Source of the DNA: a virus
DNA: 64,000 nt
Direction: 5' to 3' (one strand)
Virus record (IMG/VR): IMGVR_UViG_3300033146_003955
Coordinates: 62,001-126,000 of that record
A program made the translations under genes and the position numbers. The notes under the pieces were generated by a model that saw nothing but the letters and a program-made list of their open reading frames with translations, was not told the DNA's origin and searched no databases. Below, piece by piece: positions 12,422-62,011 of this stretch; positions within the stretch are counted from its first letter, which is position 1; each line of letters starts with the position of its first letter.

Positions 12422-12450
12422 ATGTATAAAGATTTGATAGGAGATGTTTG

Positions 12451-13542
12451 ATGTCAACAATTAAAGAGATGAAGAAAAAATTACGTTATGTTTTAAAAGA
12501 AGGAACAATTCAGCCAGTAACTCCCTTTATCTGGGGAAAACCTGGAATTGGGAAATCTCAGTCTGTAAAACAAATTGCTGATGAGATGGGAATTATGTTT
12601 ATTGACCTTAGACTTTCACAGTTGGAGAGCGCTGATCTTAGAGGTATTCCTGTACCTGATATGGAACAAGGTATATCTAAATGGATGCCACCAGAATTTC
12701 TTCCTTTTAAAGGCATTAAAAAATTTGAAGGTACTTCTGGTATAATTCTTCTTGATGAGTTTAATAGAGCACGACCCGATGTTCTTCAGGCAGCATTCCA
12801 GCTTGTGTTAGATAGACAGGTTGGTATTCATGAAATTATGGATTCATGGTTTATTGTAGCTGCTGGTAACCTTGGAGATGAGGATAGAACAGATGTTATC
12901 GAGATGGATTCTGCTCTTAAGAATAGATTTATTCACTTTAGTGTAGATGTTGAGTTGGATTCTTGGTTACGTTGGGCAAACAAAACCAAAATTAATTCTG
13001 ATATTATAACTTTTCTAACTTCAAAACCTGCTTATCTGTATCATACGGCTAAAGAAGAAGATAATATATTTGTTACTCCTCGTTCATGGGAGAAGTTTTC
13101 TGATATTCTTGCTCAGAATCCGGATGTTGATCCTATGGAAATTACTGCTATTCTTGGTCCTGATATTATCAATGGAGCTGCTGGTCACTTCATGAAATTT
13201 CTTGAATCTAAAGAGATTGTTTCTGGTAAAGATGTTATTACTAAATATCATCAGGATGCGGTTAAGAAGAAAATCAAAGCTATGCAGAGGGATCAGATTT
13301 ATGCTCTAGACGGCGATATTGTAGACTATATTCTTAAGAGCAAGAAAACTACAGATATTCATTTAGAGAACCTACACAATTTCGCTAAAGAGAATCTTGA
13401 GAAAGATATCTATATTGCATTCATGAGAAATCTTGCTCAAAAATGCGTTAATGAGGAACATAACTTCATTGATAAGTACCTCAAAAAGTACATCAAGGAA
13501 TCAAAAGAGATTATTCAAATCTTTAAAAATAAATTAAGCTAA
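12451..13542 (+). CDS. MoxR-like AAA+ ATPase, module 2
   Basis: The start is ATG 12451, seven nucleotides after AGGAG; an in-frame TTG at 12448 is less likely. The 363-aa product is of normal MoxR size: Walker A GKPGIGKS (29-36), Walker B IILLDE (98-103), then FNRARPDVLQAAFQL, a sensor-1 AAGN and an arginine-finger-like NRF. It is separated by a terminator from, but clearly paired with, the metallopeptidase-VWA gene at 13631. Such pairs act as chaperone-like remodelling machines. It is a diverged paralogue of 1955-4567 without the long extensions. Confidence 0.88.
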   Translation: MSTIKEMKKKLRYVLKEGTIQPVTPFIWGKPGIGKSQSVKQIADEMGIMFIDLRLSQLESADLRGIPVPDMEQGISKWMPPEFLPFKGIKKFEGTSGIILLDEFNRARPDVLQAAFQLVLDRQVGIHEIMDSWFIVAAGNLGDEDRTDVIEMDSALKNRFIHFSVDVELDSWLRWANKTKINSDIITFLTSKPAYLYHTAKEEDNIFVTPRSWEKFSDILAQNPDVDPMEITAILGPDIINGAAGHFMKFLESKEIVSGKDVITKYHQDAVKKKIKAMQRDQIYALDGDIVDYILKSKKTTDIHLENLHNFAKENLEKDIYIAFMRNLAQKCVNEEHNFIDKYLKKYIKESKEIIQIFKNKLS

Positions 13543-13553
13543 TCACTAGCTTG

Positions 13554-13580
13554 CTCCCTCTTTGAGGGAGTTTTTTTTTT
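13554..13580 (+). terminator. Rho-independent terminator
   Basis: CTCCCTC-ttt-GAGGGAG is followed by ten T, immediately after the MoxR-like gene. Partial termination may set the ratio of ATPase to VWA protein; a class A-like element follows at 13600. Confidence 0.93.
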
Positions 13581-13599
13581 GAAAATTTCGGTTTCTCAT

Positions 13600-13613
13600 G
13601 CATAGTTAATTGC
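13600..13613 (+). promoter_or_regulatory. Class A-like element GCATAGTTAATTGC with SD-bearing leader
   Basis: GCATAGTT lies after the terminator. By analogy with the leaderless copies, transcription would start about 14 nt after its first G, near 13614. That leaves a 17-nt leader containing AAGGAG before the ATG at 13631. Confidence 0.45.
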
Positions 13614-13630
13614 ATAATAAGGAGATGATG

Positions 13631-15211
13631 ATGGCTAAAGAAACAAAAGATGTAAGTACTTCAAAAGTTAGTTTAACTAATGAGCAAAAGGAACAGGCTA
13701 GGTCTGCTCTTGTGTCTGCTGGTGTAGTTGCTCCTCGACTAAAGAAAGTAAGGATTCCAAAAAGATTTGAAGATATATCCCTCCGATGGGTAAAACAAGC
13801 ACCATTTTTCTCAGAATTTATGCTTCGTTTTCACTTCTTCAAAACTAAAGATATCCCAACAGCTGGTGTTAATGTTATGAGAGGAAATCTCAATTTCTAC
13901 TTCAACCCTGAATTTATTGATGGTGGTGGAGAGAGACCTGACATCGGTGATGATGGACATCCTGTAATAATTAAAAATAAAGCTGGAGACCCAGAGCTTG
14001 ATGCTCAAGGTAATGTTCAGGTTAAAATGGTTCCTCGTGAAGCATTAACCAATTCAGAACTTGAAGGCCTTCTTATACATGAGATTTATCACATTATCCG
14101 CCTCCACCACGAAAGAAGTCTTGAGGATCACCAGCTCTTTAACGTAGCTGCTGATATGCTCATTAACGATGATATCTCTACTCTCAAAATAAATAATAGA
14201 GGTATGGATCTTCCTGCTGGTGGTGTCTTTTATAAAATGGCAATTGATGAAGGTTATACCGGTGAGAAAGTGACCGAAGAACTTTACATTTGGTTACAAG
14301 ATGTAAGACAGAAATATGAAGATATGATGCAGAAACTTATTCAGCAACAAATGGGTGGTTCTGGCGGTGAAGGATCAGGTAGTCAAGGTCAACAGGAATG
14401 TTCTGCGTGTGGTGGTGACGGTCAGGAAAAAGATGAGAATGGTAATCCTACTGGTGAAACTTGTGAGAAGTGTGGTGGTTCTGGTAAAGAGTCAGGTCAA
14501 AGTGGTCAAGGTAAGAAAAACTCCCTCTTCGACGTACTCTTCGGCTCAAATATTGATGTTCATGAAATCATGGGTCAGAGTGATGAACTTTCAGATGCAA
14601 CTATTCAGGAAGTATTAGACTCAGCAAAAATACGTGGCTGGGGCTCTATGGCAGGAGATGCTGTCTCAAAAATTCAGGAATTGATGACTCCAGCAAAAAT
14701 TCCTTGGAGACAGGTTTTAAGAAAATCACTTTCTCCTCTTATTTATGATTATGGACCACATTTTGAAAATACATGGTCTCGTAGAAACAGAAGAGGACTT
14801 CCTCTTCCAGGTCTTAGACGTCTTACTAATCGTCTTGTTATTGCAATTGATACTTCTGGTTCTATCGGTGGTAATGAACTTGAACAATTCTTCGCTCAAA
14901 TCGAGAAGATTGTCAAAGACTTTTCGCAGTTGATAGTTATTCAATGGGATACTAAAATCGCAGATGTCTCGCTCGCTTATAGAAAGGGTGATTGGAAGAA
15001 CATTGAAGTTAAAGGTCGTGGTGGAACACATGTACAATGTGTATTCGACTGGATGAGCGATAACGGATATAAAAAATATCCACTCATAAACTTCACAGAT
15101 GGCTACTTTGATTATGGCTTTGATAACCATGGCATTAAAACTATTTGGTGTGTAACTGAAGCAGATTCAACTGTACCCCGTGGCAAAAATATATTTATTG
15201 ATGTAAATTAA
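13631..15211 (+). CDS. Fused metallopeptidase-like / DnaJ-type zinc / VWA protein (DUF2201-like), module 2
   Basis: ATG 13631 lies six nucleotides from AAGGAG; ATGs at 13625 and 13628 are closer. The 526-aa protein holds an N-terminal metallopeptidase-like domain with HEIYHIIRLHHER at about 150-162, a Gly/Ser/Gln-rich linker with a DnaJ-like zinc motif (CSACGGDG at 257-264, CEKCGGSG at 278-285), and a C-terminal VWA domain with MIDAS DTSGS (407-411) and T489-D490. It is the single-chain counterpart of the split genes at 4572 and 5890. The zinc motif is not present in module 1. It most likely works with the ATPase at 12451; the client protein is unknown. Confidence 0.85.
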   Translation: MAKETKDVSTSKVSLTNEQKEQARSALVSAGVVAPRLKKVRIPKRFEDISLRWVKQAPFFSEFMLRFHFFKTKDIPTAGVNVMRGNLNFYFNPEFIDGGGERPDIGDDGHPVIIKNKAGDPELDAQGNVQVKMVPREALTNSELEGLLIHEIYHIIRLHHERSLEDHQLFNVAADMLINDDISTLKINNRGMDLPAGGVFYKMAIDEGYTGEKVTEELYIWLQDVRQKYEDMMQKLIQQQMGGSGGEGSGSQGQQECSACGGDGQEKDENGNPTGETCEKCGGSGKESGQSGQGKKNSLFDVLFGSNIDVHEIMGQSDELSDATIQEVLDSAKIRGWGSMAGDAVSKIQELMTPAKIPWRQVLRKSLSPLIYDYGPHFENTWSRRNRRGLPLPGLRRLTNRLVIAIDTSGSIGGNELEQFFAQIEKIVKDFSQLIVIQWDTKIADVSLAYRKGDWKNIEVKGRGGTHVQCVFDWMSDNGYKKYPLINFTDGYFDYGFDNHGIKTIWCVTEADSTVPRGKNIFIDVN

Positions 15212-15224
15212 ACTATATTTTCTT

Positions 15225-15254
15225 CCGTCTATAAAGATAATAAGTAGACGGAGG
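15225..15254 (+). promoter_or_regulatory. Leader of the STAS gene: class B box in the loop of a CCGTCTA/TAGACGG hairpin
   Basis: CCGTCTA (15225-15231) pairs perfectly with TAGACGG (15245-15251). The 13-nt loop contains TAAAGATAAT (15232-15241), and the right arm includes the first two G of the ribosome binding site GGAGG. If the box is a -10 element the left arm is not transcribed; if the hairpin is RNA it would hide the SD. Confidence 0.5.
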
Positions 15255-15262
15255 ATATTTTT

Positions 15263-15805
15263 ATGGAAATAACAAATTATTTTGATAAGTTTAATAATTC
15301 AGATAAAGAATTAATAATAGAAGAAAGGTATTTTAATGAAGATACCAGATTTGTAATGTTGGGTTTAAAAGGTTTAATAGATACATATAATACAATTCCA
15401 TTCTACGATAATATTAAGAAATTTTTAGCTTTAGAAGAGCGTTTAGTTTTAGTTTTAGATATGAATTCAATAAGTTATATGTCTTCTACTGGAATTGGGA
15501 TATTTCTTCAAATAGATAAAGATTGCAAAGCTGGGAATATAAAGTTATATTTAATGGGCATACGAAAGAATGTCGACGAAGTATTTTCCCTTCTGGGTTT
15601 TAAAATGTTTTTTAATTATATAACAGAGTTGAATGACATTAAAGAGGAAAAAATTATTAGATCAATCTTCCCTCAGAAAATAAAATGCCCAAACTGCGGC
15701 ATAACTTTAAAAATATCAAAAATTGGTGCTTTTAAATGTACTGGCTGTTTAAAAACATTTAGAATAGTAGAAAAAAATAATAATGAAATAGGAGTTAATA
15801 AATGA
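15263..15805 (+). CDS. STAS-domain (anti-anti-sigma-like) protein with C-terminal zinc ribbon
   Basis: The 180-aa product contains LVLDMNSISYMSSTGIGIFL (about 63-82), which matches the strand-loop-helix around the phosphorylatable Ser of SpoIIAA-type anti-sigma-factor antagonists (S74, S75 or T76 here). A C-terminal zinc ribbon has CPNC (142-145) and CTGC (159-162). In bacteria these proteins bind anti-sigma kinases and free a sigma factor. A phage copy could redirect host transcription, or may have been recruited for another contact; that is inference. The ribosome binding site is CGGAGG. It overlaps the next gene (ATGA). Confidence 0.75.
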   Translation: MEITNYFDKFNNSDKELIIEERYFNEDTRFVMLGLKGLIDTYNTIPFYDNIKKFLALEERLVLVLDMNSISYMSSTGIGIFLQIDKDCKAGNIKLYLMGIRKNVDEVFSLLGFKMFFNYITELNDIKEEKIIRSIFPQKIKCPNCGITLKISKIGAFKCTGCLKTFRIVEKNNNEIGVNK

Positions 15806-16011
15806 AGGTTGGTGTAGCATTTGACAATCTTGCGTCTTTCTTTAACGATGACGATGAAAAAGAAAGCGCTTCAATCCCTGCAGAAGTTTTTAGAGATGAA
15901 GAAGGAAAAGTTATAGAAGTACGCATATATAATCCAGAGTACGAAGAAATAATTGTTGTTGGGAGAAATAAAAATGTTGAAGCACTCTCGGTCGAAGAAT
16001 ATTCTAAGTAA
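15802..16011 (+). CDS. Unknown small acidic protein (69 aa)
   Basis: ATGA overlap with the STAS gene and a GGAG site eight nucleotides before the start support translation. The N-terminal half is acidic (FFNDDDEKE); the second half looks like a small beta hairpin (VIEVRIYNPEYEEIIVVGR). The start of the following transglycosylase gene lies within it. No family recognised. Confidence 0.65.
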   Translation: MKVGVAFDNLASFFNDDDEKESASIPAEVFRDEEGKVIEVRIYNPEYEEIIVVGRNKNVEALSVEEYSK

Positions 16012-16648
16012 ATTATTTTTAATATTCATACTTTTTCTGTGTTTTATTACGCTAAGTGTTTTATTAATATCAGTAAATTCATCTTTAGTTATTACTAAAG
16101 AATCAAATATGATTGAATTATATACACCAATAGTAGATGATTCAACTTTTTTGATGAGATGGGATATAAACTCCCATGCTATGGAGAATCCAGAAAATGT
16201 AATCCTCTTCTACTCTGAGTATACTAATAATGAAATAATCACATCAGCTATTATAAATAATGCAATAGAACACAATGTTCCCCTAAATATAGCTTTCTCT
16301 GTAGCTTGGGCTGAAAGTAAATTTAACCCTGATGCATATAATAATAATGGTTCAACAACAGATAGAGGTCTTTTCCAATTAAATGATCTTTATAGAAATT
16401 GGACTAAAAATGAATATTATAATATAGAACTAAATGCTCACGAAGGAACTAGATATTTGAGCGAAATGATTACTCTTAATAAGGGTGATATTATTTATGC
16501 CCTCTACTGTTACAACGCAGGTCCTACTCGCGTTAGAGGGGAGGGCATTATCCCTAATATGACTAAAAAGTATGTAGATAAGGTTTTAGAGTATGAAGAC
16601 ATGTTAAACCAAGATTTTAACAAATGGGTTAATGAGGAGCATAGTTAA
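15974..16648 (+). CDS. Membrane-anchored lytic transglycosylase (SLT-like)
   Basis: ATG 15974 follows GGGAGA by seven nucleotides. Residues 13-38 form an N-terminal hydrophobic anchor. The SLT-type lysozyme fold is shown by VAWAESKFNP with catalytic E114, then RGLFQLN and ALYCYNAGPTRV, the usual three-motif order. The enzyme would cleave the glycan strands of peptidoglycan from the outer face of the inner membrane, probably in lysis or lysis control, since it has a signal anchor and lies outside the tail operon. A membrane protein gene follows at once. Confidence 0.85.
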   Translation: MLKHSRSKNILSKLFLIFILFLCFITLSVLLISVNSSLVITKESNMIELYTPIVDDSTFLMRWDINSHAMENPENVILFYSEYTNNEIITSAIINNAIEHNVPLNIAFSVAWAESKFNPDAYNNNGSTTDRGLFQLNDLYRNWTKNEYYNIELNAHEGTRYLSEMITLNKGDIIYALYCYNAGPTRVRGEGIIPNMTKKYVDKVLEYEDMLNQDFNKWVNEEHS

Positions 16649-16655
16649 ATATATG
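16639..16655 (+). promoter_or_regulatory. Class A start element GCATAGTTAAATATATG
   Basis: The element ends with the ATG at 16653 and overlaps the 3' end of the transglycosylase gene. GGAG directly precedes it but would be 13 nt from the ATG, too far for normal initiation. Confidence 0.55.
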
Positions 16656-16904
16656 ATGTGGTTAATATTAATTACTATTATTTTAATAGTTTTCAATATA
16701 ATAAATTTGATTTATGTTCTTAAGAAAAATAATAAAAAAAAAGAAGCACTTAACAGATATAAAGTAAAATATAAATTAGTTGGCGACAATGCTGTTGCTG
16801 CAATGAAAATACACAAACAATTTATAAAAGAATACAATGAATTGGGCGGAAATTATCAAATTGACGTCATAGATAAAACAAATAATATATTAGGAAGGAG
16901 CTAA
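16653..16904 (+). CDS. Small single-pass membrane protein (83 aa)
   Basis: The start at 16653 is chosen from the class A element; an upstream in-frame ATG at 16632 is possible. The first 25 residues (MMWLILITIILIVFNIIN and on) form one transmembrane helix; the rest is basic and helical, probably cytoplasmic. Next to a transglycosylase it could be an accessory lysis protein (holin- or spanin-like), but no specific motif supports this. Confidence 0.5.
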   Translation: MMWLILITIILIVFNIINLIYVLKKNNKKKEALNRYKVKYKLVGDNAVAAMKIHKQFIKEYNELGGNYQIDVIDKTNNILGRS

Positions 16905-19339: not shown

Positions 19340-19843
19340 ATGATAAAAGATCAGTATGAGAAAAATTATAAGAAGTATATAAATAATACACAATTTGATG
19401 ATTTTATGAGTTCAACAACAACGGAGTTAACAGCAACAACGGAGTTAACAGCAACAACGGAGTTAACAGCAACAACGGAGTTAACAGCAACAACAAGTGG
19501 TGGAATATGGAGTATTAATCCTTTGACTACAGGCGATGGTTGGTACTCAGATGGGACAGCTACAAGTCTACCTATAATAGGTGATAATACTTATAGCGGC
19601 GGTATGATAAATATACCGCTCTTAGCCGGAAATACTACTTATGAATATCCTGCACATCGTACTCCAGGGACTGAAGAATGGCCAATAGTACCTGATGCCC
19701 TAGGTGTTGTATATATCGAGGGTAATGAAATTAAAATAAGAATGGCAGATGGGAAAACAATTGTTATAGGCCGTTTAGATGATGGAGAAGATTTCGTACC
19801 TATTGAAGTTGTTGCAGCTAAGAAAAAATTAATAGATGAGTAA
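19340..19843 (+). CDS. Unknown protein with TTELTA repeats (167 aa)
   Basis: After a basic helical N-terminus comes a run of four TTELTA repeats, then a Gly/Thr/Tyr/Pro-rich region (GGIWSINPLTTGDGWYSDG) and a beta C-terminal part (VVYIEGNEIKIRMADGKTIVIG). The composition is that of a surface or virion decoration protein, but no family is evident. Its stop overlaps the start of the next endonuclease gene. Confidence 0.6.
   Translation: MIKDQYEKNYKKYINNTQFDDFMSSTTTELTATTELTATTELTATTELTATTSGGIWSINPLTTGDGWYSDGTATSLPIIGDNTYSGGMINIPLLAGNTTYEYPAHRTPGTEEWPIVPDALGVVYIEGNEIKIRMADGKTIVIGRLDDGEDFVPIEVVAAKKKLIDE
19418..19489 (+). repeat. 18-bp tandem repeat, 4 perfect units (TTELTA)
   Basis: Four identical copies of acaacggagttaacagca run in frame. 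Perfect identity indicates recent expansion by slippage; copy changes would not shift the frame. Confidence 0.95.
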
Positions 19844-21116
19844 AAAATTAACTACTGAAGAATTCATACAAAAAGCTAAACAAGTACATGGTGATAAGTA
19901 TGATTATTCTTTAGTTGATTATAAAGGCGCCAAGATTAAAGTTAAAATAATATGTCCTAAACATGGTATATTTGAACAAATACCCGATAACCATGTAGTA
20001 GGTAGAGGATGTAATAAATGCGGTAATATTAATAGTTCTAATAAGCAGTCTTTAACTATTAAAAAATTTATACAAAAAGCTAAGCAAGTGCATGGCAATA
20101 AATATGATTATTCTTTAGTTGATTATAAAAATATGAATATTAAAGTTAAAATAATATGTCCAGAACATGGAATTTTTAAACAATTACCTAGTGCACACAT
20201 AGCCAGTCAAGGATGCTTTAGATGTAATGGCGGGGTTAAATATACGACTAAAGAATTTACACAAAAAGCTAAACAAGTACATGGTGATAAATATGATTAT
20301 TCTTTAGTTGATTATAAAAATATGAATATTAAAGTTAAAATAATATGTCCAGAACATGGAATTTTTAAACAATTACCTAGTGCACATATAGCTGGACGAC
20401 AATGCTCTAAGTGTTCAAATAGACTTAGGTATACAACAGAAGAATTTACACAAAAAGCTAAACAAGTACATGGTGATAAATATGATTATTCTTTAGTTGA
20501 TTATAAAAATAATAAAATTAAAGTTAAAATAATATGTCCTGAACATGGAATTTTTAAACAAAAGCCTATAGATCACATACTTGGCGGAAATTGTTCAAAA
20601 TGTTCGCAAGTATATCAATATACGACTGAAGAATTTATAGATAAAGCTAAAGAAGTACATGATGATAAATATAATTACTCTTTAACAAATTATATAAATA
20701 ATAAAACAAAAGTTGATATAATATGTCCAGAGCATGGTGTGTTTAAACAAAAACCAGCAAATCATTTATATGGGCAAGGCTGCCCTATATGTAATGAAAG
20801 CAAAGGCGAAAAAGCTGTAGCTAAGTATTTAGATGATAATAATATAAAATATATAAGAGAATATAGATTTAATGATTGTAAAGACAAACGTGTTCTTCCA
20901 TTTGACTTTTATATTAAAAATAAAAATGTGTTAATAGAATTTGATGGAGGTCAACATAAAAAAGCTATAGAATATTTTGGGGGTAAAGAAGGACTCGAGA
21001 ATATAAAACGACGAGATATAATCAAAACACAATATGCTAAAAGGCATAATATAAAATTAATAAGAATAAATAATATAAATGAAATTTTAGATAAATTGAA
21101 GCATATTTTAATATAA
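19836..21116 (+). CDS. Repeat-module (DUF723-like) putative homing endonuclease with VSR-like nuclease domain, five modules
   Basis: The 426-aa product has five modules of about 63 residues, each TT(E/K)EF(I/T)QKAKQVHGDKYDYSLVDY, then KVKIICPEHGIFKQ with a CxxH...H...CxxC zinc pattern. The C-terminal nuclease has SKGEKAVAKYL, VLPFDFYI, VLIEFDGGQHKKA and IKLIRIN. Modules 2-4 are nearly identical in DNA, evidence of internal duplication or conversion. It starts inside the end of the previous gene, without an SD. Confidence 0.7.
   Translation: MSKKLTTEEFIQKAKQVHGDKYDYSLVDYKGAKIKVKIICPKHGIFEQIPDNHVVGRGCNKCGNINSSNKQSLTIKKFIQKAKQVHGNKYDYSLVDYKNMNIKVKIICPEHGIFKQLPSAHIASQGCFRCNGGVKYTTKEFTQKAKQVHGDKYDYSLVDYKNMNIKVKIICPEHGIFKQLPSAHIAGRQCSKCSNRLRYTTEEFTQKAKQVHGDKYDYSLVDYKNNKIKVKIICPEHGIFKQKPIDHILGGNCSKCSQVYQYTTEEFIDKAKEVHDDKYNYSLTNYINNKTKVDIICPEHGVFKQKPANHLYGQGCPICNESKGEKAVAKYLDDNNIKYIREYRFNDCKDKRVLPFDFYIKNKNVLIEFDGGQHKKAIEYFGGKEGLENIKRRDIIKTQYAKRHNIKLIRINNINEILDKLKHILI
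21101..21114 (+). promoter_or_regulatory. Class A-like element GCATATTTTAATAT with SD-bearing leader
   Basis: Located at the 3' end of the endonuclease gene and 33 nt before the ATG at 21134. A start near 21115 would give a leader containing AGGAG. Confidence 0.4.
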
Positions 21117-21443: not shown

Positions 21444-21451
21444 GTATATTG

Positions 21452-31179: not shown

Positions 31180-32259
31180 ATGAGTTTAAAAAAAACAACT
31201 AAAGAATTTATAAAAGAAGCAAAAGAAATACATGGTGGGAAGTATGATTATTCTTTAGTTAATTATAAGACAGCTATAACTAAAATTAAAATAATATGTT
31301 TAAAACATGGAACGTTTGAACAAATTCCAAATAGTCATTTAAACGGTAGCGGCTGTCCTAAATGTTCACATAAAGGAATTAAATATACAACTGAAGAATT
31401 TATAATAAAAGCAAAAGAAATACATGGTGGGAAGTATGATTATTCTTTAGTTGATTATATTGATAATAAAACTAAAATTAAAATAACATGTCCAAAACAT
31501 GGAGTATTTAAAAAAAGACCTAATTTACATTTATCCAAAAAACAAGGTTGTCCAAAATGTATGGGTAGAAATCGAACAACTGAAGAATTTATAATAAAAG
31601 CAAAAGAAATACATGGTGGGAAGTATGATTATTCTTTAGTTGATTATATTGATAGCACGACTAAAATTAAAATAATATGTCCGAAGCATGGGGTATTTGA
31701 ACAAACACCAGGCAATCATTTTTTAGGTAAAGAATGTTATAACTGTGGCAAATTTAAAATTAAATATACAACTGAAGAATTTATAATAAAAGCAAAAGAA
31801 ATACATGGTGGGAAGTATGATTATTCTTTAGTTGATTATATTGGTAGCACAACTAAAATTAAAATAATATGTCCGAAGCATGGGATATTTAAACAAAAAG
31901 CATCAAGTCATTTAAATGGTAATGGTTGTCCTACTTGTAATAGTTCCAAAGGTGAAATAGAAATTATTAATTATTTAAATTATAAAAATATAAATTATGA
32001 AAGAGAATATAAATTTGATGATTGTAAAGATAAAAGAGTTTTACCTTTTGATTTTTATATAAAAGATTTAAATATTCTTATTGAATTTGACGGAGATCAA
32101 CATAGAAAAGCTATAAAATTTTTTGGTGGAGAAAAAATGTTTAAAGATAGACAACGAAAAGATGTTATAAAAACTAAATATGCAAAAGATAACAATATAC
32201 AATTAATAAGAATAAATTGTGTAAAAGATATTAAAACGCTACTTACATCAATGGAATAA
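31180..32259 (+). CDS. Repeat-module (DUF723-like) putative homing endonuclease with VSR-like nuclease domain, four modules
   Basis: The 359-aa product contains four modules of TTEEFIIKAKEIHGGKYDYSL type with CPKHG...H...CxxC zinc patterns, then a nuclease domain with SKGEIEIINYL, VLPFDFYI, ILIEFDGDQHRKA and IQLIRIN. Long stretches of modules 2-4 are identical at DNA level. It starts one base after the previous stop without SD. Third member of the set with 368 and 19836; intact. Confidence 0.7.
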   Translation: MSLKKTTKEFIKEAKEIHGGKYDYSLVNYKTAITKIKIICLKHGTFEQIPNSHLNGSGCPKCSHKGIKYTTEEFIIKAKEIHGGKYDYSLVDYIDNKTKIKITCPKHGVFKKRPNLHLSKKQGCPKCMGRNRTTEEFIIKAKEIHGGKYDYSLVDYIDSTTKIKIICPKHGVFEQTPGNHFLGKECYNCGKFKIKYTTEEFIIKAKEIHGGKYDYSLVDYIGSTTKIKIICPKHGIFKQKASSHLNGNGCPTCNSSKGEIEIINYLNYKNINYEREYKFDDCKDKRVLPFDFYIKDLNILIEFDGDQHRKAIKFFGGEKMFKDRQRKDVIKTKYAKDNNIQLIRINCVKDIKTLLTSME

Positions 32260-44434: not shown

Positions 44435-47400
44435 ATGGCTAATTGTGATAACACTTCTAATGATAGTGGTAACCTTGGCGTGGGACCAGGTGTTCCAAAT
44501 CCTAATATTGATTCTGAGATTTTAAAACCAGAACAAAATATCCCCCCTCGAGAAAGTTATAAATTGGGTGAAAATTTTTTAGAACCTGATAATAAAGCTC
44601 AGAAAGGTATACGTACTTTAGGTTCTTTCGGTACTCAAAAAAATAAAAATGAAAATGACTTAACACTTCCAACTGGTCAGAGAATAAAAAATGAACAAGA
44701 AATACAGCAAGCTATAGAAAGAAGAGGTAAGGACGAAGCTGAACCTCAAATGCCTATATCTTCTACAAGTAAAATAGATGAAAAAATCACTCAAATAAAA
44801 GATTCTGAAACTAAAAAATCTGTTGATATTGCTAGCACAGAAACTCGACCAAATAAAAATTTAAATGAAATATCCATTTCTTCAGATTCTAAATTAAAAG
44901 AATTAAATTCAATAAACATTAAATCTGATTCTAAAAAAGATGAGCAAGAAGTATTAGAAAGTGAAAATAGAGATATAAAAATAGGTGATCAAATAGATTT
45001 GGTAAGTAGTAGACAGATTAAAGATTCTTCTATTACTATAACAGGTGAAAAAAATTTTAAAAAAGATGAAGTGGTGGAAGATACTAATACTCATGAGAAA
45101 AAAGATTCTCCATCTATGGAAGTTAGCGGAGCTAACGGAAATCAAGTAAAAGTAGAAAATGATATAAATACAACTGCTCCTGTTGTAAATGATAAATTTT
45201 TTAATGAGAAGGATTTAAATGTAGTTGATATATTTAAAAATTCTAAAAAAGACGAAGTTGTAAATGTACACGACTCAACTGGGAAAAAGTCCGAATCAGA
45301 TTTGGGTCCAGAAGAAGATCACACTCTCAAGTTTGAGATGGATATACCTTCAACAATTTCAGTTAATAAAACTGAAGAAGAAATTGCTGGTACTATACCT
45401 ACTGAAAAGACTGAAGAAGAAATTGCAGACACTACATCTACTGAAAAGACTGAAGAAGAAATTGCAGACACTACATCTACTGAAAAGACTGAAGAAGAAA
45501 TTGCAGACACTACATCTACTGAAAAAGATTTACAAGAAATTGCAGACACTATATCTACTGAAAAAGATTTACAAGAAATTGCAGACACTATATCTACTGA
45601 AAAAGATTTACAAGAAATTGAAGAAGCTACAGCGTCTCAGGGTAAACCAACTGATGTTCAAATAACAACAGAAGCATCCAGCTCTGTTAATGCTTCACCT
45701 ATAACTATATTAGAAGCAGAAACAGGTGGAAGTGCTTTATCTTATAACGTAAACACTCCTGCTTCAGAACAAATAATAGAGAACGATTATGATACTACCT
45801 CGGTATTAAGAAATAAAGATGTAGCTGACAATAGCGCCTCTCGTGCAGATTCTGAAGGTAACGTTACTTTTATTGATGAAAATGGGAATGTAAATACAAC
45901 AATTAGAAAAATTAAAGATTCAACAAATACTGTATCGGCGTTAGCTTCTGCTGGTTTTAATCCTACAACAACTAATGGCGAAATTGATACAGAATTGTAT
46001 GACAATGCTGTTAAGGTACTATATGAGGACAATGTATTATCTAGTAATTATAGTACAAATAATAATGCTAATAAAAATTATGAATATGAATTAAATACTA
46101 ACATAAAAGCTAATAGAGAAATAGAATCTAATGAAGGTTTACTTGAAAAAGAAACATTAAAACAGGAAACAACAACTGATACCCATTCTAAAATAGGAGA
46201 TGTGTTATCAGATCCCGATCAAAGAAACGAGAGATACGATTATACAGAGTTGGAAAATGATGGGCAGGTAATAAAAGGAAGCGGCGATGCTATCGGTGCA
46301 AGAGATTTTAAATCTATAGACGTAAGTAGTGATGGAATAATAAATCAAGAATTATATCCTAATGATCCTGTTAATATACCTGAAAGTGCTAATGTCATTG
46401 ATAAAAATATATCTAATATATATCATGAAAATTTTATATATGATGATTTTGGTAATGAAAGAAACACTGATATAAGTTCAGAATCTAATGTTGGTTTATT
46501 CGATAGTGAAACTCCAAAAAAAGAAGTAACAGATCCAACAAATCAACTAAATTTAGAAAAACCTAATGATCAACTTCAAAATAGGCCAGAATACGTAGGT
46601 GATAATAATACAAATGATGAAATAAAAGGTATAAGAGATAATAAATTAAATGGTATAACAAATGAAAATATCATTCACTCAAATTATGAAGCTTCTATAA
46701 AAATTGATAATGCAGTATTAAATGCTGGTGAAGAAAGAGAAAGTGGTCAAGAAAATACTAATCATGATTATAGTAATTATATAAGTAGCAGAAATGTAGA
46801 AAACGATTTTATAGATACTACTGTACATGAACAAAACACACCTCGTAAAACAGTTGTACCTCCTAATAATATAATTGGCAACACTGAACCTTTAACCCAA
46901 TTACAAGACCGTTCGGAATACGTGGGTGACAACGATATAAACGATAGAATAAAAGGTGTAAGAGATAATAAACTAGATGGCATAACAAATGAAAATATTA
47001 TTCACTCAAATTATGAATCTGAATATAAAATAAATGAAGCAGCTCAGTTTAATGCTGTGACTACAGATGATGTTATTTCAGGTCAAGACAAGAGTAATTT
47101 TAATTATGATTCTGTACAAATTAAGAGACCGTATTCAAAATTATCAGAGAGTACAATAAATTCAGAATCATTTGTCCACGGTGTTACTCAAACTGATGAA
47201 ACAAATGTTGTATACCAAGACGATGATACTGATGGATATACTGGGCAAGTTAATGTCCAAGATGTTCTTACTGTAACTCGATTAGATAGAAACGTTGAAT
47301 ATACACTTAACGATATAGATAAGACAAAATTAAAAATAGATGCAACTACAGTTAATAGCGAAGGTGATATTACAGATATTGATTTTAATAATTATAATCA

Positions 47401-61400: not shown

Positions 61401-62011
61401 AGAGTATCAACTTCTGTTTCTGTGTAATATAGAGTATTCAGTTGTCCATCATTTAATTCTACTTTAGAATAATAATTTGATACTATTTCACTTTCAGTAA
61501 AATATCTATCATCATGAACATGAGTTGTAAGAGAGTAATTATTTAAGAGAGTATCAACTTCTGTTTCTGTATAATATCTGTCGTCATGTATATGAGGCGT
61601 TGCAGGAAATGTTGCAGGAGTATTTACTATATTAGTCCAATCAACTTGTGATTGTCCCGGGGATAAAAGTTCCGCTTTCCTGTAATACCAATCATCATGA
61701 TGATGCCAATTACATTGAGTACCCGACGTTAAAGAAAGAGCTTGCATGTCTGTAAGATTATTTACTTCAGCACCTTCTTCTATTGTATCTAATTTATCTC
61801 CGTCTACAGATACATCTCGGCCATCTATTATCATTGTATGAGGATCTAATTGATGTTCATCATCACGCATAATAAATATTGGTATTTGCGCGTCTACTAA
61901 TTGCCCAGTATGTTGTTCTCCACCTAATTCATGGGGTGAGGACATAATATCAACCGGTAAACGGTGATTGATTGGTGGGATGCCGTCAAGTTCGTTTATA
62001 TTAAAAGGCAC
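58469..62011 (-). CDS. Large tail fibre with 24-residue repeats and LamG-like domain (1180 aa)
   Basis: GTG start after GAGGAG. About a dozen copies of a 24-residue unit (DDRYYTETEVDTLLNNYSLT plus SHIH) occur in two blocks, typical of trimeric fibre shafts. A LamG-like sandwich (AFFMKFDNNINDEIG to IDELFLEKSTYS) interrupts them. Each block includes a FGIKGxVDxYxNLP-type segment also found in the 708-aa fibre. The C-terminal jelly-roll (IQVEVNGNLAFSL, FTIELAWRK) is probably the receptor-binding tip. Confidence 0.85.
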   Translation of the reverse strand: MPFNINELDGIPPINHRLPVDIMSSPHELGGEQHTGQLVDAQIPIFIMRDDEHQLDPHTMIIDGRDVSVDGDKLDTIEEGAEVNNLTDMQALSLTSGTQCNWHHHDDWYYRKAELLSPGQSQVDWTNIVNTPATFPATPHIHDDRYYTETEVDTLLNNYSLTTHVHDDRYFTESEIVSNYYSKVELNDGQLNTLYYTETEVDTLLNNYSLTSHIHDDRYYTETEVDTLLSNYSLTSHIHDDRYYTENEIDLIIAAASFGIKGYVDTYSNLPITQNIGTIYIVKTTVGINEEGFYRWDGSGWTFLANNIGTSDHNSLNNLNIGDYLHLTALEYTELTGGNNTVLHTHDDRYFTESEISTNYYSKIELDSGQLNTLYYTETEIVNNYYDKPTIDSMLVGLESKGIKGSHDQFRDLPLTGNTEGDVYIVRERNGIPEPPNYGGAYVQNSNTAFFMKFDNNINDEIGHPTSYHGGGITYQAGRNGQSGDLNDGYVRVPNSPDFNVGGAFTAGCWLKPNSYDQVMSIFDAWGNGSSANAWALLIRDGRVEVWLKSETTPLIKVISYSRIKLNEWTHVAITFDGTTIKLWKNAIVIGQGVFDGPLGNIPNVLDIGKYYSHRIDGEIDELFLEKSTYSDIQLQELVNNEQFTGYREEGFYRWDGTEWVWLDFNNGGIFHNSLLGLDTEDYRHINRYEKSDLVDGNDASSRHHHDSLYYTETEVDTLLNNYSLTSHIHDDRYYTETEVDTLLNNYSLTSHIHDDRYYTETEVDTLLSNYSLTSHIHDDRYYTETEVDTLLDNYSLTSHTHDDRYYTETEVDTLLSNYSLTSHTHDDRYYTETEVDTLLDNYSLTSHTHDDRYYTESEIVSNYYSKVELNGGQLNTLYYTETEVDTILLGYATLVHNHDNLYYTESEIDTFLSNYSLTTHLHDDRYYTENEINSLLAGKANLVHIHDDRYYTESELNSDSGISGAALIGVSLIGGITSNNVQDALQELRNQVSLTSSTLDEAYDNGKEITVDDGPVKLNASTSTDAPLELTSLAATPTTNLGAGQISIIDNILYIYDGNRNKWLSPSKLVVYAKNNNSDGTTLSLPGGMKDWRSGIKMLHDACILGVSVETSNSINNKEIQVEVNGNLAFSLNTDSNGKVLNNSLNYDLNEGDYISVYVTNQGAALHDAVFTIELAWRK
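59420..59880 (-). repeat. 72-bp tandem repeats in the large fibre gene
   Basis: Successive near-identical units encode YYTETEVDTLL(N/S/D)NYSLTSHIHDDR. Adjacent units can be almost identical over 72 bp; a second, shorter block lies at about 61270-61590. Recombination between units could change shaft length. Confidence 0.9.

Follow-up and report, generated by a model that had tools for sequence, protein, structure and literature searches.

A large phage carries a gene (positions 15263–15805, plus strand; ATG at 15263, TGA at 15803–15805) whose 180-residue product is, as judged from its sequence and predicted structure, a STAS protein of the phosphorylatable RsbV/SpoIIAA type that ends in a predicted zinc ribbon. 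The STAS superfamily is known; what is new is the zinc-ribbon architecture, the phage setting without partners, and a leader with a candidate promoter inside a hairpin. The gene lies in the window, the 64,000-nucleotide stretch that we analysed, which corresponds to positions 62001–126000 of a 158,812-base viral record. We tentatively favor, at slightly short of an even chance, a model in which this protein is a solitary anti-sigma-antagonist-like factor that is made late, its translation being gated by the hairpin, and that binds an RsbW-type GHKL kinase of the host. A previous, sequence-only reading had described a phage gene for a STAS protein with a zinc ribbon behind a leader hairpin, and had suggested that it frees or traps a host sigma factor by partner switching; its domain reading was right, and its interpretation as a whole is partly supported.

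The STAS domain and its predicted phosphosite

The STAS domain comprises residues 18–122 (15314–15628, plus strand), with modeled secondary structure running from a strand at residues 18–25 to one at 118–120. The Pfam STAS family PF01740 matches residues 27–119 with E = 8.8e-16 and 58 bits against a cutoff of 22.6, and the NCBIfam anti-sigma-antagonist superfamily TIGR00377 (ant_ant_sig) is passed at 55.2 against 53.45 bits, a margin of less than 2 bits. The protein clearly fails the SpoIIAA equivalog TIGR02886 (28.6 versus 114.75 bits) and MlaB NF033618 (18.9 versus 90 bits). Among solved relatives, the sequence search ranked TM1442 first (5e-10), followed by the Haliangium antagonist 4hyl and Bacillus subtilis RsbV. 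An AlphaFold2 model of the protein, computed from a 13-row alignment (pLDDT 79), best matches RsbV of the RsbV/RsbW complex, with a TM score of 0.90 normalized to the target, and SpoIIAA/SpoIIAB also match; a viral structure library gave no fold match at E 0.001. The anti-anti-sigma-like identity proposed earlier is thus upheld by both family models and by a predicted fold that is that of RsbV/SpoIIAA rather than a different one.

The loop SYMSSTGIG, which the earlier reading had taken for the phosphosite, withstands alignment: the predicted phosphoserine S75 (codon 15485–15487, plus strand), the second serine following the methionine and preceding TG, aligns with S56 of RsbV and S58 of SpoIIAA and is invariant across 85 aligned STAS rows. 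In the RsbV/RsbW complex, S56 of RsbV contacts E49 of RsbW, and D23, Y53, and R84/R87 of RsbV also contact the kinase (PMC7340262). D23, Y53, and S56 correspond to D40, Y72, and S75 of the phage protein, which keeps the contact aspartate and tyrosine, while the two arginines are replaced by N103 and E106. A Glu or Asp at the R87 position is also found in Chloroflexota and Haliangium relatives, and it is with these 'YMSS' STAS proteins that the phage protein groups in the tree (support 98/94, on a long branch). The same group holds one STAS row that, by sequence, is fused to a GHKL-like domain. The Chloroflexota relatives examined (L015, L094, and L096) adjoin HATPase_c_2 kinases and GAF-domain genes, and a SpoIIE phosphatase domain is present in one full Chloroflexota locus. 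Given this gene context beside kinases and GAF/SpoIIE regulators, together with the GHKL-like fusion, the 'YMSS' subgroup appears to work in ordinary partner-switching modules.

Predicted zinc-ribbon tail, phage setting, and rarity

The C-terminal segment that we assign as a zinc ribbon (residues 139–168; 15677–15766, plus strand) carries four cysteines in the pattern CxxC-x13-CxxC (C142-x2-C145-x13-C159-x2-C162). Shuffling the 180-residue protein produced a CxxC-x8-25-CxxC arrangement in only 31 of 100,000 trials, and the model of the tail, a region for which the alignment holds no homologues, shows two knuckles and three strands (148–153, 156–159, and 165–170) at a pLDDT of about 75–81. No zinc-ribbon family reaches its curated cutoff: the transposase zinc ribbon PF12760 scores 21.2 versus 25.4, and HypA and McsA match weakly. 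The assignment, which agrees with the earlier reading, therefore rests on the motif and the predicted fold, and metal binding is predicted. The tail was not found in bacterial STAS relatives, comprising 80 loci and the best matches in about 800 genomes of two phyla.

Such a tail could make the protein a phage transcription regulator, with a ribbon that binds RNA polymerase, DNA, or RNA, a STAS domain that only dimerizes or receives a phosphorylation signal, and the phage's own late genes as targets. We regard this as rather unlikely. A precedent exists in CapS, which joins a STAS domain to a C-terminal DNA-binding domain (its counterpart VapS has a STAS domain and a short tail; PMC13373217) and is thus a STAS protein that itself acts as a DNA-bound regulator. 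The phage moreover has no recognizable sigma region 4, which suggests that it may redirect the host polymerase by other means, and a distant relative does encode a sigma region 2 protein. The tail, however, matches none of the known nucleic-acid-binding zinc families strongly, and nothing links it to the polymerase.

That the source is a large, unclassified phage holds on the gene content of the record, which includes a baseplate V domain, a weak tape-measure match, a phage-type 5'-3' exonuclease, and RuvC; we also counted its ribonucleotide reductase, MoxR, and DUF2201-VWA genes as phage support. The STAS gene sits tightly between phage genes, and the description of it as phage-encoded thus stands. 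Upstream on the same strand lie a MoxR ATPase gene (12451–13542), an intrinsic terminator (13553–13571) that probably marks the start of the STAS transcription unit, and, directly adjacent, a gene for a DUF2201 metallopeptidase/VWA protein (13628–15211; PF13203, PF09967, phrog_1314). Downstream, the STAS gene opens a run of overlapping plus-strand genes: a 69-residue acidic orphan without a family match (15802–16011), whose start overlaps the STAS stop (ATGA); an SLT lytic transglycosylase with an N-terminal hydrophobic segment (15974–16648; PF01464, 1.2e-15), overlapping the orphan; and a 90-residue protein, also with an N-terminal hydrophobic segment and without a family match (16632–16904), overlapping the SLT gene. 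The host phylum is hinted at by a TraF-like protein with a signal sequence and a weak match to a Borrelia flagellar transglycosylase, which together point weakly to spirochaetes.

Several other features of the record deserve mention in their own right. MoxR-ATPase/VWA gene sets occur twice in the phage (window:1955–7491 and 12448–15211), and a 189-kb viral contig (G424) also has such a pair, its VWA protein being 42% identical. A eukaryote-type DNA topoisomerase IB with all three domains (PF02919, 2e-64; PF01028, 8e-64; PF14370, 1.5e-21) is encoded at L009:10072–11796 on the minus strand, about 156.1–157.8 kb in the contig; tblastn against 50,697 phage records gave no match to it. A tRNA gene with a CTA anticodon, called tRNA-Pyl by ARAGORN, lies at L006:13503–13575; recoded stops were considered on account of it and rejected, as TAG serves as an ordinary stop and the sequence agrees with the standard code. 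At least six proteins (window:368–1438, 19836–21116, and 31180–32259; L006:16377–17456; L008:13321–14394; L009:671–1597) consist of repeated zinc-finger-like modules of the form 'TTKEFIQKAKxxHGNKYDYSLVDY...KIICPEHGIF' (DUF723/DUF4379-like) and share a C-terminal domain resembling an endonuclease. Finally, a single open frame of more than 3000 codons, apparently for a giant virion protein, occupies L004:10904–20000 and runs past the end of that stretch.

Anti-sigma antagonists are usually encoded together with a GHKL kinase, a SpoIIE phosphatase, or a sigma factor, although this is not required of the family. In the 158.8-kb record we detected no HATPase_c_2, HATPase_c (GHKL kinase), SpoIIE, or Sigma70 region 4 domain, while control genomes were positive, and no late sigma factor was recognized there. 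The contig is possibly incomplete, in which case it might lack a kinase gene that the phage does have. A distantly related 189-kb viral contig encodes a 201-residue protein with a sigma-70 region 2 (L126:6391–6996; PF04542, 1.7e-6), and a counterpart of it was looked for in the phage record and not found. Should the phage protein act through partner switching, it probably does so with a partner supplied by the host, since the phage shows no partners and the nearest bacterial relatives lie beside GHKL kinases and SpoIIE/GAF regulators.

Phage STAS proteins are rare. No PHROGs STAS family matches the phage protein at E ≤ 1, and tblastn of INPHARED (50,697 phage records) yielded no clear phage STAS protein; plasmid records were searched in the same way. 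The INPHARED matches lack annotation and mostly carry Staphylococcus or Listeria names; we rejected them as phage STAS proteins since they look like host RsbV, with the exception of MT835993, which comes from human faeces. Scans of viral contigs with the full protein and two STAS alignments found no relative, with patterns narrow enough that more divergent phage STAS proteins may exist. Neither 29 viral contigs with a related ribonucleotide reductase nor related viral contigs reached through the VWA protein contain a STAS gene; these contigs are distant kin, without a tail-region gene of the STAS phage, and serve as weak controls. The viral contigs, the genome contigs, and about 800 genomes of two phyla yielded no full-length relative of the protein; all findings on the STAS-zinc-ribbon combination come from one genome. 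In the literature searched, no paper linked 'phage-encoded' with 'STAS domain'.

Rarity and base composition raise a further explanation, namely that the gene is a passenger, a host STAS gene recently caught in front of a lysis-like operon and doing little, with the hairpin serving to silence the downstream transglycosylase early in infection, as for T4 lysozyme. The GC content of the gene is 25% and its GC3 20%, versus 31% and 32% for the window, which places its GC below that of its neighbors; the absence of STAS genes from the 29 reductase contigs and the overlapping downstream genes, including the SLT enzyme, also fit this account. Against it, the reading frame, the STAS hallmarks, and the four cysteines are all intact, and the absence of the tail from every bacterial homologue seen argues for evolution under some use. 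The 29 contigs, being distant kin, say little by their absence of STAS, and we consider a mere passenger the least probable of the explanations weighed here.

Leader hairpin and candidate promoter

The Shine-Dalgarno sequence GGAGG (15250–15254), to which the STAS ATG lies 8 nt 3', is contained in the 3' arm of a leader hairpin with a 12-bp stem and an 11-nt loop (15221–15255, plus strand), and an outer 5-bp stem, pairing 15213–15217 with 15262–15266, covers the start codon. The hairpin has a z-score of −3.9 and ranks second in stability among 209 leaders. The earlier claim that this is the only gene behind such a hairpin was inexact, as several other leaders have strong, mostly terminator-like hairpins; what does set the STAS leader apart is the burial of its Shine-Dalgarno sequence, which at a calculated pairing of 0.998 ranks first among 123 leaders.

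TATAAAGATAAT (15230–15241, plus strand), which extends from the last part of the 5' arm across most of the loop, is a copy of a leader motif, TNTWAAGATAAT, that occurs 15 times in the contig versus 2.6 expected under an order-3 Markov model (maximum 5 in 20 simulations) and 7 times in the window versus 1.1 expected. Of the seven window copies, six are followed on the same strand by an ORF start no more than about 60 nt away. From this enrichment, we infer that TNTWAAGATAAT is a candidate promoter element, possibly a late one; other window copies, at 21450, 28392, 33985, 44397, and 62049 (minus strand), would belong to the same candidate phage promoter family. De novo EM motif search of the leaders, which are AT-rich, made no clear motif call, SigB, sigma-28, and sigma-54 promoter patterns did not occur in leaders above chance, and an Rfam search of the STAS leader returned no match.

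Where transcription starts would matter greatly for translation of the STAS gene. The calculated Shine-Dalgarno pairing of 0.998 in RNA with the 5' arm falls to about 0.08 when the RNA starts at 15246–15250, the start expected for a promoter that has this motif as its −10 element; if TNTWAAGATAAT is a phage late promoter, RNAs starting there would expose the ribosome-binding site. The leader of the 2418-residue gene at 44435 (window:44375–44435) has a weaker hairpin of similar design, with the Shine-Dalgarno sequence inside and a AAGATAAT motif within, and trimming its 5' arm changes the calculated pairing little (0.99 to 0.83). The full exposure effect of trimming is seen only in the STAS leader.

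Control by a promoter within a hairpin is known for the T4 genes e (lysozyme), soc, 49, and I-TevI (PMC3014915, PMC2988022). By calculation, the STAS leader fits this T4-type arrangement of a buried or exposed ribosome site, and T4-style timing of translation, a role that the sequence-only reading did not propose, appears to explain the hairpin best. Judging from the structure of the leader, production of the STAS protein is probably late.

Proposed mechanism and comparison with known systems

In the model that we favor, read-through mRNA from upstream would carry the ribosome-binding site folded in the hairpin and be poorly translated, while the putative promoter TATAAAGATAAT within the hairpin would start transcripts without the 5' arm, which would be translated and would also express the overlapping downstream genes, including the lytic transglycosylase. 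The STAS protein would be unphosphorylated when made, since the phage brings no kinase or phosphatase, and would dock on an RsbW-type GHKL kinase of the host, which would then release the sigma factor or other STAS protein that it normally binds. The role of the zinc ribbon may be to anchor this complex on RNA polymerase or nucleic acid, or else to restrict which partners are chosen. In support of an antagonist role we count the PF01740 and TIGR00377 matches, the fold match, S75, D40, and Y72, the tree, the lack of a phage partner, the hairpin, and the promoter-like motif; against it stand the replacement of R84/R87 by N103/E106, the TIGR00377 margin of less than 2 bits, and the possible incompleteness of the contig. 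Binding to an anti-sigma factor is putative, as is the freeing or trapping of a sigma factor suggested by the sequence-only reading. A fuller version, in which the late, unphosphorylated protein with its zinc-ribbon tether takes over a host partner-switching kinase under hairpin-promoter control and either redirects a sigma factor or silences a GHKL-triggered defence, is more doubtful.

Defence could also be the target from the outset. CapK and VapK are DNA-damage-activated GHKL kinases whose substrates, CapS and VapS, switch on defence operons or free the VapC toxin (PMC13373217), and the phage protein might be a CapS/VapS mimic that serves as a decoy substrate of CapK/VapK or binds VapC. In both CapS and VapS the switch is phosphorylation of the loop serine by a GHKL kinase, and both have ties to phage defence (PMC13373217); the phage encodes the substrate half alone, as a decoy would. 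Yet its tail is a predicted zinc ribbon and not a winged helix, no defence model matched, and the sequence search gave RsbV, TM1442, and SpoIIAA, not CapS or VapS, whose entries are possibly newer than the database copy used. Late timing, if true, would likewise count against the blocking of an early defence, for which a protein silenced until late is poorly suited, and would favor a role in late transcription or in the physiology of the lysis phase. We therefore hold the counter-defence explanation to be unlikely, and return to a late-made antagonist of a host RsbW-type kinase as the preferred model.

In bacteria, partner switching between STAS proteins and GHKL kinases controls programmes for stress and sporulation and, according to recent work, for defence against phages. 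Phage proteins that intervene at this point seem to have hardly been described. The present protein points to an uncommon means by which a phage may influence the regulatory kinases of its host in late infection. A phage with an anti-sigma antagonist and no visible sigma factor would allow a direct test of partner-switching sigma control during infection, and its leader offers an opportunity to test timed translation of the T4 kind in a phage that is not of the T4 group.

Also directed at developmental or stress programmes of the host are the sigma factors and Spo0A fragments with which some phages change host dormancy (PMC9429907, PMC10294663). Unlike the STAS protein, they are direct transcription factors, and PMC10294663 mentions no SpoIIAA or anti-sigma gene. 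The T4 e, soc, 49, and I-TevI leaders resemble the STAS leader in having the Shine-Dalgarno sequence in the 3' arm, a promoter-like motif in the hairpin, and an expected long read-through transcript; they differ in their motif, which is TATAAATA in T4 and TATAAAGATAAT here, in a phage with no recognized late sigma factor.

CapS and VapS share with the phage protein a STAS domain followed by a C-terminal part, and in their case a loop serine phosphorylated by a GHKL kinase and a role in phage-host conflict. CapS ends in a winged helix-turn-helix and VapS in a short tail, in place of the predicted zinc ribbon, and both are encoded by the host beside their kinase. We rejected identity with CapS, which needs the winged helix-turn-helix beside capK, given the predicted ribbon and the lack of a GHKL gene in the record, and identity with VapS, which needs an operon of VapC (PIN) and a STAS-GHKL kinase, as the immediate neighbors are the VWA, 69-residue orphan, and SLT genes and the record shows no GHKL gene.

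The closest resemblance in the loop is to the 'YMSS[AT]G' STAS proteins of Chloroflexota and Haliangium (L015, L030, L094, L096, and 4hyl), which have the same SS loop, Glu or Asp at the R87 position, and the 98/94 tree grouping; unlike the phage protein they have no zinc ribbon, and L015, L094, and L096 lie beside HATPase_c_2 and SpoIIE/GAF genes. Compared with RsbV and SpoIIAA, the phage protein differs in having no adjacent kinase, phosphatase, or sigma gene, in its C-terminal zinc ribbon, and in the replacement of R84/R87. With RsbV, SpoIIAA, and TM1442, which at about 25–31% identity to its STAS domain are its best sequence and fold matches, it has in common the STAS fold, the G-x-[IL]-D motif, and the loop serine.
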